The notes under the pieces are model-generated. The model saw only the letters and a program-made list of their open reading frames with translations. It had not been told where the DNA came from and made no database searches. Of a DNA stretch of 64,000 nt, positions 31,866 through 35,755 are shown piece after piece. This DNA is from Priestia megaterium (GTDB lineage Bacteria; Bacillota; Bacilli; Bacillales; Bacillaceae_H), in NCBI RefSeq assembly GCF_023824195.1, contig NZ_CP085442.1:1154001-1218000 (forward strand), given 5' to 3'. The translations under genes were made by a program, and so were the position numbers. Within the stretch, counting starts at the first letter, position 1. Every line of letters starts with the position of its first letter.

Positions 31866-31930
31866 AATATTTTTATTTTTCTATTTACGCGGATAAAATT
31901 GTTTGATAAAATAAATTTTAAATTAAAAAA

Positions 31931-32076
31931 GTTATCACGAGTGGACGAGAGATCTGGCTCTTTGACTCCACAGCAACCTACGAATGTAAGGTGCTCCTAC
32001 CAGCAAAGCATGTGCTTTGGGTGATAAAACGGGTGAAAAACTCATTTTGCATCAAAGCAAAATGAGTTTTTTTTAT
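31931..32076 (+). promoter_or_regulatory. SAM-I (S-box) riboswitch with terminator
   Basis: P1 is TTATCAC (31932-31938) paired with GTGATAA (32021-32027). P2 is GTGGA with TCCAC, enclosing GAG..CTC. The conserved GCAACC lies at 31973-31978. P3 is ACCTAC/GTAAGGT, with the conserved AAGGTGC. P4 is AAAGCA/TGCTTT. A terminator (AAACTCATTTTGC / GCAAAATGAGTTT then T-run, 32037-32076) follows, so SAM should switch the downstream gene off. It precedes only the 80-codon gene at 32099. Confidence 0.88.
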
Positions 32077-32098
32077 TTTTCTAAAAGGAGAGGGTTTT

Positions 32099-32341
32099 AT
32101 GAGTCATACAGCAGTTGCAGCACATACAGGAGAGAAAGCATTAAAGGAAGCAGTGAAATTATTAGGAAAGCATTATCAAGTAGCTTATCGTGAATTAGAA
32201 ACATTTTATGAAATTGTGGTCGAAAACCATGTTCGTACATATGCTGTAGGCATAGATATTAAAGATGTACAAAAAGCAAATGAACTAGAAATTTATTCAT
32301 CATGCTGTTCCAAGCTTGAGCGAGTAGGCTGTCTTTTATAG
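32099..32341 (+). CDS. Small SAM-riboswitch-controlled orphan protein
   Basis: This 80-residue soluble protein starts M-S-H-T-A-V-A-A-H-T and has three Cys near the C-terminus (Cys69, Cys70, Cys78 in S-S-C-C-S-K and G-C-L-L). A helix-strand-strand-helix pattern is suggested, with E-T-F-Y-E-I-V-V-E-N-H in the middle. I do not recognise it. It is the only gene behind a SAM-I riboswitch, so it is expected to be made when SAM is low, which points to methionine or sulfur metabolism. The ATG follows AAAGGAGAGGG. Possible roles are a metal- or thiol-binding factor or a small regulator; none is shown. Confidence 0.8.
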   Translation: MSHTAVAAHTGEKALKEAVKLLGKHYQVAYRELETFYEIVVENHVRTYAVGIDIKDVQKANELEIYSSCCSKLERVGCLL

Positions 32342-32491
32342 AAGAAGTCTGCTCGCGCCTCTATTTTTTAAGTGTTCTTAAATAGAAAGCATGGTTTTTG
32401 ACAAGCAAAGAACCTGGTGGGTATAATCAATATTCACTAGATTTTAAAATTAATAATAAATTGTCGAAATTTTTACACAAATTAAAGGTTA

Positions 32492-32551: not shown

Positions 32552-32641
32552 ATGGAAATGTCTCTTGAACACGGAAACGATGCAGGAAGCGAACAGCTTA
32601 TTGATCGTATCCTAGACTTTTTAGAAGATGACGAAAAGTAA
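32552..32641 (+). CDS. Small acidic protein (29 residues)
   Basis: An ATG at 32552 is preceded by GAAAGGAGC at about 8 bases. The 29 codons read M-E-M-S-L-E-H-G-N-D-A-G-S-E-Q and then an amphipathic stretch L-I-D-R-I-L-D-F-L-E-D-D-E-K. The next base starts a strong terminator, so it forms a complete transcription unit. The second half would form an acidic amphipathic helix. I do not recognise it; a peptide, small regulator or protein inhibitor is possible. Confidence 0.6.
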   Translation: MEMSLEHGNDAGSEQLIDRILDFLEDDEK

Positions 32642-32686: not shown

Positions 32687-32801
32687 TCATGTGCGTAAAG
32701 GCAGCGCCATACTATGATACATAGGGATAGAATGAAAGGGTCTCTGTCAAAGGGATTGACGAATGGTTTTGTTTGATAGAAAATTTAGAAAAAGGAAAGA
32801 G

Positions 32802-34424
32802 ATGAAGGGTATGTCGAACAAAACATCTTTGTATCAAACAAAAGAACAGTTAAAAAAACTTGTAAGCGAATTGGTTTCTATACCTAGCGTGACAGGAACG
32901 ATGGCAGAAGTGGAAATGGCTGAATCGATAGCGTCTTATTTATTGAAGCTGCCTTACTTTCAAAGAAACGAGCAAGTCGAGCTTCATTCAACAGGAGACG
33001 GGCGATCGATTGTCACAGCTTTTGTTCAAGGGAAAAGTACGAATAAAACAGTTGTACTAGTAAGTCATTACGATGTAGTGGATGTACAAGATTATGGACA
33101 CTGGAAAAAGGATGCTTTTCACGCTGATACGTTAACGAGCACTTTTTATAACCATATGGAAGAAGTTCCGACGCACGTACAAAAAGATATGATAAAAGGA
33201 GACTGGCTTTTTGGCCGAGGAACGATGGACATGAAAGCAGGCATTGCCCTGCATATCAGTATGATTGAACGAGCATGCAACGGAGAGTTTGACGGAAACA
33301 TCCTGCTGCTGTCGGTGCCGGATGAAGAAGTAAATTCGCTTGGGATGAGAAAAGCAGTGCCTGTTCTTTTAGAACTTGCCCGCAAACATCAGCTGGATTT
33401 TTCTCTCATGCTAAATGCAGAGCCAGTATTCAGCCGCTATCCTGGAGATCAAACGAACTATGTGTACTCAGGATCGATTGGGAAGATCATGCCAAGCTTT
33501 TTGTGTTATGGAAAAGAAACTCATGTAGGAGAACCGCTAGCTGGTTTAAATGCTAATTTACTAGCTTCTTATTTAACAAAAGAAATAGAATTAAACGTTG
33601 ATTTTTGCGAAAAAGTAAGAGATGAAACGAGTCCACCTCCTACGGTGCTGATACAAAAAGATTTAAAAGAAGAGTATTCAGTTCAAGTTCCGCACTCTGC
33701 CGTTGTCTTATTTAATTTATTTATGTTAAACCGCTCTCTTAAAGAAGTAACAGATCTGCTGCTAAAATCAGCTAGCCTAGCGGCTTTGGATGTAAAAAAA
33801 CATTATAATAAAGCCGCTAGGCAGTACGCTGTGGGAATGGAGGGTTCATCTCTTGACGTGAACGTATGGACGTATGAAGAACTTTATACTCATGCAGTAA
33901 AACAGCACGGTGAAAAATATGTGCACGAAATGGAAGCAGCACTTTTGGCACAAGAGGATGATGACAGAAATAAAACCATTAAATTAGTAAACTCTTTAGC
34001 TGGTTTATGTAAAGAAGCAGCTCCGATGATGGTCTTATTTTTTACGCCGCCTTTTTATCCGGCCGTTTGTTCACATGATGATCCGTTTGTACAAGGAATT
34101 TTGTCAAACGTACAGGCAATTGCCAAAGAGCAATTCCAAGTGGAGCTAGTTGAACAAAGTTATTTTGGCGGAATTTCGGATTTAAGCTATGCCAGCCTGC
34201 AGCATCCGCTTCATACATTTAACACATTAGTAGAAAATATGCCGCTATGGAATAAAGGGTATCATATCCCGCTGGAAGAGCTAGAGGAGCTGAAGATGCC
34301 GGTGCTGAACATTGGACCGCTGGGAAGAGATGCGCATCAATGGACCGAAAGATTAGACGTTCAGTATTCCTTTGAAATTTTGCCTCATTTCATTTATCGA
34401 GCTATAAAAGAAGCACAGAAATAA
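32802..34424 (+). CDS. rocB: Arginine utilisation protein RocB (M20 family)
   Basis: This protein of about 540 residues belongs to the M20/M25/M40 peptidase superfamily and matches RocB, which takes part in arginine catabolism in Bacillus; its exact reaction is not firmly known. Metal-site motifs are S-H-Y-D-V-V-D, G-R-G-T-M-D-M-K-A-G, and D-E-E-V-N-S. A long insertion in the middle distinguishes it from carboxypeptidases. The start is ATG at 32802, with AAGGAAAGAG just upstream; ATG 32811 is possible. No other roc gene is in the window, so it is separated from the usual rocABC order. A palindrome covers its stop. Confidence 0.88.
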   Translation: MKGMSNKTSLYQTKEQLKKLVSELVSIPSVTGTMAEVEMAESIASYLLKLPYFQRNEQVELHSTGDGRSIVTAFVQGKSTNKTVVLVSHYDVVDVQDYGHWKKDAFHADTLTSTFYNHMEEVPTHVQKDMIKGDWLFGRGTMDMKAGIALHISMIERACNGEFDGNILLLSVPDEEVNSLGMRKAVPVLLELARKHQLDFSLMLNAEPVFSRYPGDQTNYVYSGSIGKIMPSFLCYGKETHVGEPLAGLNANLLASYLTKEIELNVDFCEKVRDETSPPPTVLIQKDLKEEYSVQVPHSAVVLFNLFMLNRSLKEVTDLLLKSASLAALDVKKHYNKAARQYAVGMEGSSLDVNVWTYEELYTHAVKQHGEKYVHEMEAALLAQEDDDRNKTIKLVNSLAGLCKEAAPMMVLFFTPPFYPAVCSHDDPFVQGILSNVQAIAKEQFQVELVEQSYFGGISDLSYASLQHPLHTFNTLVENMPLWNKGYHIPLEELEELKMPVLNIGPLGRDAHQWTERLDVQYSFEILPHFIYRAIKEAQK

Positions 34425-35395: not shown

Positions 35396-35755
35396 TTAGC
35401 GACGACAGCCATGCCCTTTAAAGCAGCAGCCAAATGATTTATTAAACCATGGGTATGAGCAACAAGGTGAACCGCAGCGACAGCGGCGACGGCTAGAACG
35501 GCGAGTAGAACGACGAGTAGAACGACGAGTAGTGCGGCGAGTAGTGCGGCGAGTAGAACGACGAGTAGTGCGGCGAGTAGTGCGGCGAGTAGAACGGCGA
35601 GTAGTGCGACGAGTAGTGCGACGAGTAGTGCGGCGAGTAGAACGACGACGAGAGCGTCTGTGGCGCGCAGTTGGCTCTTGGTACATAAATGTTTCAAGCT
35701 CAGTGCAAGCAAGCGCTTCTGTTGCTTCTCTAATTCTTTCAGCAGTGATATGCAT
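35396..35755 (-). CDS. Arg-rich RRTT/RRST tandem-repeat protein, possible spore protein
   Basis: This 119-residue protein has three parts: an acidic helical N-terminus (1-29, M-H-I-T-A-E-R-I-R-E), an extremely basic region of 13 four-residue units R-R-[ST]-[TS] (residues 37-88), and a Cys-rich end with Cys92, 94, 98, 99, 110, 111 and 117. A frame of Leu/Ala-rich repeats overlaps on the same strand, but only this frame has an ATG with GGAGGTG 8 bases upstream. The mix resembles spore coat or core packaging proteins such as CotG, whose Ser/Thr in basic repeats are phosphorylated, but I cannot assign a family. DNA or polyanion binding is likely from charge. Confidence 0.75.
   Translation of the reverse strand: MHITAERIREATEALACTELETFMYQEPTARHRRSRRRSTRRTTRRTTRRTTRRSTRRTTRRTTRRSTRRTTRRTTRRSTRRSTRRSSRRRCRCGSPCCSYPWFNKSFGCCFKGHGCRR
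35492..35647 (-). repeat. 13 tandem 12-bp units
   Basis: This 12-bp direct repeat (consensus on the plus strand GAACGGCGAGTA and GTGCGGCGAGTA variants) encodes the R-R-[ST]-T units. Units vary at synonymous and Ser/Thr positions. Copy number is likely to vary between strains through slippage. Confidence 0.85.

Follow-up and report, generated by a model that had tools for sequence, protein, structure and literature searches.

In the 64,000-nt stretch of Priestia megaterium DNA analysed here (the window), a SAM-I (S-box) riboswitch aptamer and an intrinsic terminator precede the gene of an 80-residue protein. The protein belongs to an unnamed family that is found mainly in one order of Bacilli, is kept together with an orthologous subclass of S-boxes and is under strong purifying selection. 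We read the locus as an S-box-controlled cassette whose product would be a small soluble regulatory or adaptor protein of the low-SAM (methionine-sparing) response, and not an enzyme or a transporter, and give this reading a probability of about 0.5.

Few riboswitch regulons are as well studied as that of the S-box, and most of the targets known for it are methionine, SAM and sulfur genes. A protein family that has kept an S-box of its own across 17 families of the order, with no Pfam or NCBIfam match in our scans, suggests that a component of SAM homeostasis has been missed. Since the pairing with an S-box recurs in many related bacteria, the small protein is probably an undescribed part of the low-SAM response. 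Its short gene mostly stands by itself and is under the control of a known signal, and its role is therefore directly testable in a laboratory strain of Priestia.

The leader and its gene in Priestia megaterium

The features of the locus are collected in Table 1. The whole window was scanned with cmscan, and the aptamer was recovered as a match to RF00162 (67.5 bits against a gathering score of 44.4, E 1.4e-13, model positions 1-108). The GCAACC and GGUGC core motifs were unbroken in the RF00162 alignment, and helices P1-P4 were seen both in this alignment and in the minimum-energy fold. The initial annotation had proposed a complete S-box with these core motifs and with a terminator of its own; the first is confirmed by the score above the cut-off and the second by the hairpin and T-run found behind the aptamer. 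In its full-length match, its core motifs and the terminator that follows, the leader is like other SAM-I riboswitches (RF00162), from which it differs in belonging to a GAGTG...GAGAG...GGCTC subclass and in having an unnamed small protein as its target. The promoter is called weak because four such sites were found in the region and 4.2 were expected in shuffled sequences. The sole other Rfam match in the window was a Mn2+ riboswitch (yybP-ykoY, RF00080; 57397-57492, + strand, 54.4 bits).

Table 1. Features of the S-box leader and the small-protein gene (positions are those of the window)
Feature	Position	Strand	Basis or measure
Sigma-A-like promoter, weak: TTTACG-17-TAAAAT, TG ahead of the second hexamer	31884..31912	+	9 of 12 matches; about 17 nt 5' of the aptamer
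SAM-I (S-box) riboswitch aptamer, RF00162, complete; subclass sequence GAGTGNNNGAGAGNNCNGGCTC	31929..32030	+	Covariance-model scan
3' strands of P4 and P1 (GCTTTGGGTGAT), possible 5' half of an antiterminator	32014..32025	+	Predicted duplex of -13.0 kcal/mol with downstream sequence, without shuffled control
Intrinsic terminator hairpin with T-run, 16 pairs	32035..32072	+	1 in the region, 0.5 expected in shuffles
ATCAAAGC, terminator loop and 3' arm, possible antiterminator partner	32051..32058	+	Predicted
Ribosome-binding site AAGGAGAGGG	32085..32094	+	Read from the sequence
Gene of the 80-residue small protein, short form of the family, ATG start	32099..32341	+	

When the window leader was folded at minimum energy, the terminator and the aptamer helices were both formed. 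A stable hairpin was found by folding 3' of the aptamer in all 26 leaders examined, and the 3' strands of P4 and P1 gave duplexes of -12.0 to -28.3 kcal/mol with this downstream hairpin in the 26 leaders, calculated without shuffled control. At the position of ATCAAAGC, several relatives carry CTAAAGC or CAAAGC. When the window leader was folded stepwise at seven growing lengths, the antiterminator was never the minimum-energy fold and the aptamer was formed throughout; for this reason, and since the pairing energies come without shuffled control, the antiterminator is given here as a candidate structure.

In S-box riboswitches, SAM stabilises the aptamer and the terminator forms, and low SAM leads to read-through. 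By analogy with this logic, plentiful SAM would keep the aptamer bound and P1 held, and the terminator would end transcription. At low SAM, the terminator loop and 3' arm may instead be paired with the 3' strands of P4 and P1, so that transcription would proceed and the small protein would be made.

The reading frame is real, because homologues exist and synonymous changes dominate: dN/dS was 0.00-0.30 in 12 pairs of family genes, a sign of strong purifying selection. A 98% identical protein is encoded in Priestia aryabhattai B8W22. It had been annotated that the S-box controls only the small protein. The S-box and the terminator do precede its gene; exclusive control is likely, not proven, because a search for terminator-like sites with loops of at most 8 nt listed none in the interval from this gene to a 29-codon ORF further downstream.

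Several other features of the surroundings were recorded. The 29-codon ORF (32552-32641, + strand) has a similar counterpart in 6 of the 11 same-family loci examined; a consensus sigma-A promoter (12/12 matches; 32398-32427, + strand) lies ahead of it, and between the two is a TGTCGAA motif, which we take to be Spo0A-box-like. A long M20-type peptidase is encoded near the small gene both in the window (32763-34424, + strand, Pfam match) and at locus L105 (5164-6792, - strand, judged by eye). An ORF on the opposite strand of the window (35396-35755, -) has long TRRSTRRTTRR arginine repeats and a Cys-rich end.

The 5.98 Mb host genome contains 14 RF00162 matches, all over the cut-off, of which the window S-box scores lowest. 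The first ORF behind each of the other 13 S-boxes was inspected: nine look methionine- or sulfur-related (presumably homologues of yitJ, metN, metE, yxjH, metI, mtnK, cysH, mtnW and metK), one S-box is followed by a Bmp-family lipoprotein and one by a transporter that we take to be NhaC-like. Another S-box of this genome (G000:C1:3888555-3888899, - strand, L005/L204) precedes a 115-aa protein with no Pfam match over the cut-off, the relatives of which occur in 9 of 61 genomes, with an S-box at seven of these nine loci. The S-box L007 (G000:C1:939266-939365) has no recognisable same-strand gene just behind it, and the next long ORF lies on the opposite strand; a trans-acting or antisense riboswitch RNA is possible at this site.

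Reach of the protein family and of its S-box

The genomes searched were sampled at one per species. Of 101 genomes queried with the window protein alone, 16 gave a match; at two of these loci, L026 and L029, the match was weak and no S-box was present. A nine-member profile found the protein in all 16 genomes of the window's family (f1), and then found, in the rest of the order, longer forms with some 108 residues. Profiles that included the long forms matched 63 of 397 genomes (two dropped as chance), and later 75 of 397. Family members were counted in 79 of the 397 genomes of the order (16 in f1, plus 45 and 18 from two profile searches; one is a fragment), and most of the 79 carry the longer form. 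The protein had initially been called an orphan, which is wrong given this spread. Left out of the counts were the two weak matches L026 and L029, and G360 and G166, in which the matching frames of 562 and 660 aa were judged to be chance; a fragment in G027, with an S-box, is also outside the 79, and the 41-residue fragment of G194 is counted among the genomes without S-box. Similarity was held at the protein level across 17 families of the order. A class-wide profile search matched 44 of 398 genomes, 36 of them in family f62 of another order. Plasmid and viral collections contained no relatives of the small protein and no matches to the S-box subclass pattern described below.

In 62 distinct members of 90-150 aa, the most conserved positions are M1, N2, R8, K13, F20 and V24, and a C-terminal P-Y-A-L-D-R-x-x-W with G92 and Y102; the short form in the window lacks the conserved N-terminal motif of the long form. 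Attention had earlier been drawn to Cys69, Cys70 and Cys78. These residues are present in the window protein and are not a family feature, as 7 of 21 members have no cysteine at all and the best-conserved cysteine column is occupied in 34 of the 62 long members; conserved cysteines as sulfur ligands were rejected on these counts. The window protein reached no Pfam cut-off (best PF19480, 15.5 against 27 bits), no two of 30 members scanned matched the same Pfam family (best E 0.0033), and no NCBIfam model scored over its cut-off for the window protein and 13 other members. The best match in a profile search of PDB sequences (E 0.19) was not significant, and an AlphaFold2 model of the window protein alone (mean pLDDT 55.8, pTM 0.26) was unusable. 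In 21 members, the highest 19-residue hydropathy mean was 1.52, so that none has a segment with the hydrophobicity of a typical membrane span.

The association with an S-box, on which the initial annotation had staked its proposal, holds in most genomes that have a homologue. In f1, RF00162 was found directly upstream in 16/16 genomes; outside f1, S-boxes were detected with R1, a covariance model trained on 20 S-boxes that included eight from family loci. Across the order, an S-box lies on the same strand within 300 nt upstream in 60 of the 79 genomes, a count that depends in part on family S-boxes used for training R1; 25 of these 60 were also found by Rfam's own model, with which most of the others were not scanned, and one (L078) scored 46 bits with R1 and was not reported by Rfam at the gathering cut-off. 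Three more genomes have the S-box 1.9-2.6 kb upstream (L116, L094 and, weakly at 22 bits, L117), and 16 have none nearby (12 of f41, G062, two of f26 genus g115, and the G194 fragment). Divided by search, the S-box was within 220 nt upstream on the same strand in 35, distant in 3 and absent in 7 of the 45 genomes from the first long-form search, and it was 80-269 nt before the match in 9 and absent in 9 of the 18 further genomes. Seventeen of the genomes that lack an adjacent S-box were tested, three of which have a distant one, and RF00162 matches were found in all 17; the link between S-box and small protein is therefore strong, not obligatory. None of the 24 loci examined, out of 36 in f62, has an adjacent S-box; G473, a further member from the class, does have one.

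Neighbours of at least 90 aa were compared at 38 loci, among which the window was the only genome of its own family. Those common to at least four loci were common only among close kin, so that the S-box and the small gene stand out as the conserved unit. An acetyltransferase/amidohydrolase pair sits 5' of the S-box in the window and had been considered relevant; it was absent from the neighbour clusters common to at least four loci, and a functional link with the small protein was rejected on this ground. At L116 (1465-3967), a TPR/winged-helix-like protein and a PepT-like peptidase are encoded between the distant S-box and the family gene, possibly in one operon. G184 carries three copies of the small gene, each with an S-box and two of them shortened; interrupted, partly matched or shortened copies were seen behind the S-boxes of L181 and L199 (genus g16) and of L182 and L183 (G184).

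A subclass of S-boxes and its other targets

Family S-boxes were compared with S-boxes from other loci. The family set comprised 48 S-boxes, among them two distant ones, a second copy from G184 and the one of G473. Identity was 79% within this set and 60% to 55 other S-boxes, which came from G000, G181, G336, G150, G382, G062, G507 and two FbpA loci. Three sequence features of the subclass were present in 47, 42 and 41 of the 48, and in 9, 1 and 0 of the 55. In a tree of all 103, in which three S-boxes without the GCAAC motif (one family, two others) were kept, the 48 fell in one clade with local support of 0.96 and a single outsider, the S-box of G507, which precedes a hydrolase.

When 204 genomes were searched with a pattern made for the subclass, 44 of them yielded 48 hits in total, and the reversed pattern, used as control, yielded none in any of the 204. 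The subclass pattern misses some family S-boxes, for example those of G112 and G185. By reading of the loci, 31 of the hits belong to small-protein loci (one distal, and some with interrupted or shortened copies), 10 stand before a hydrolase and 7 before something else. One subclass S-box, in G210, is in tandem with an ordinary S-box before a gene that we take to be MetI-like. Another hit, in G209, precedes a cysH-like gene, and its S-box falls outside the clade. The hits in G144, in G142 and at a second site in G200 have no clear gene behind them, and in G175 and G200 (L270, L271) a subclass S-box precedes another small protein, of about 62 aa and with no Pfam match.

The hydrolase is monoacylglycerol-lipase-like (best PDB match E 6e-67; Bacillus-type monoacylglycerol lipases about 4e-64), and was found behind a subclass S-box in several genera (L267, L268, L269, L281, L282, L283, L288, L289, L290, L292, L253 and L255); that of G212 was judged from its first codons, at a contig end. 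G137 has both targets, small protein and hydrolase, each with a subclass S-box. When the hydrolase S-boxes were added to the tree, they fell with the small-protein S-boxes in one clade (66 of 121), with a local support of only 0.54. Relatives of the Bacillus monoacylglycerol lipase (PDB 3rm3 and related structures) are the second most frequent of the targets identified for this S-box subclass, and as alpha/beta hydrolases of about 258 aa they are dissimilar to the small protein. The closest hydrolase homologue in the genome of the window adjoins none of its 14 S-boxes.

Candidate function and alternative readings

The small protein is probably regulatory or an adaptor. This indirect deduction is drawn from its small size, its solubility by hydropathy, the lack of a recognised catalytic signature and its expected production at low SAM, and the regulation makes a part in SAM or sulfur balance plausible. 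A wider proposal is put forward more tentatively, and we consider it rather doubtful: the S-box subclass might define a so far unrecognised low-SAM sub-regulon of Bacillales, with the small protein as main effector, which would act post-transcriptionally or through contact with proteins to tune methionine metabolism or the use of SAM; the subclass might, in other genera, be joined to, or serve instead, the monoacylglycerol-lipase-like hydrolase of the same response.

As the main alternative, the small protein might itself be an enzyme, or a subunit of one, in methionine, sulfur or ester metabolism, perhaps tied to the hydrolase of other genera. The 10 of 48 subclass hits that precede this hydrolase and the presence of both targets in G137 speak for such a role, as does the moderate conservation of Arg8 (52/62), His23 (43/62), Asp81 (56/62) and Arg82 (46/62) in the long members. 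We consider it unlikely, since the proteins have about 80-115 residues with no catalytic pattern recognised and no family match, the short form is without the conserved N-terminal segment, and the host's closest hydrolase homologue is found at none of the 14 S-boxes. A change of ligand, in which the subclass would sense a compound other than SAM and the small protein would act in the metabolism of that compound, would fit the consistent distinctness of these S-boxes in identity and in the three features. It is improbable in view of the RF00162 matches over the cut-off, the retained GCAACC and GGUGC motifs, and the tandem arrangement in G210 with an ordinary S-box before the MetI-like gene.

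It is likewise improbable that the RNA is the functional product, with the terminated S-box transcript acting in trans as a small RNA and the ORF being incidental. Locus L181 keeps its S-box though a stop interrupts the frame, and the protein of L199 is matched in part only, as such a role would allow; purifying selection on the protein is strong, its similarity is held across 17 families, and the frames are open at the other g16 loci L170, L172, L178 and L179. The notion that a methionine-gene S-box was stranded beside an unrelated ORF, by chance or by synteny, could appeal to the family members without S-box. It is contradicted by the close adjacency in 60 of the 79 genomes, by the differing neighbourhoods and by the grouping of the family S-boxes in the tree, and was rejected.

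The regulatory or adaptor reading was also set beside known systems. No description of the family was recognised in the literature searched, which left most subscription journals and supplements outside its scope, and an earlier listing among hypothetical S-box targets is possible. A SAM riboswitch of Bacillus methanolicus, (SAM)-BMMGA3_09040, is listed from RNA-seq data before a single gene of 'Unknown function' (PMC4342826). The window locus resembles it in having a SAM riboswitch before the gene of an unnamed protein, and the two are likened here by description and not by protein sequence.

A possible functional analogue is the Fur_reg_FbpA family (PF13076), which comprises small proteins of the iron-sparing response and likewise offers a small protein made on shortage. 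None of the 30 members of the small-protein family scanned against Pfam matched PF13076. An FbpA-family gene does stand behind a second S-box beside two of the family loci, at L074 (1031-1139, - strand) and L082 (995-1102, + strand).
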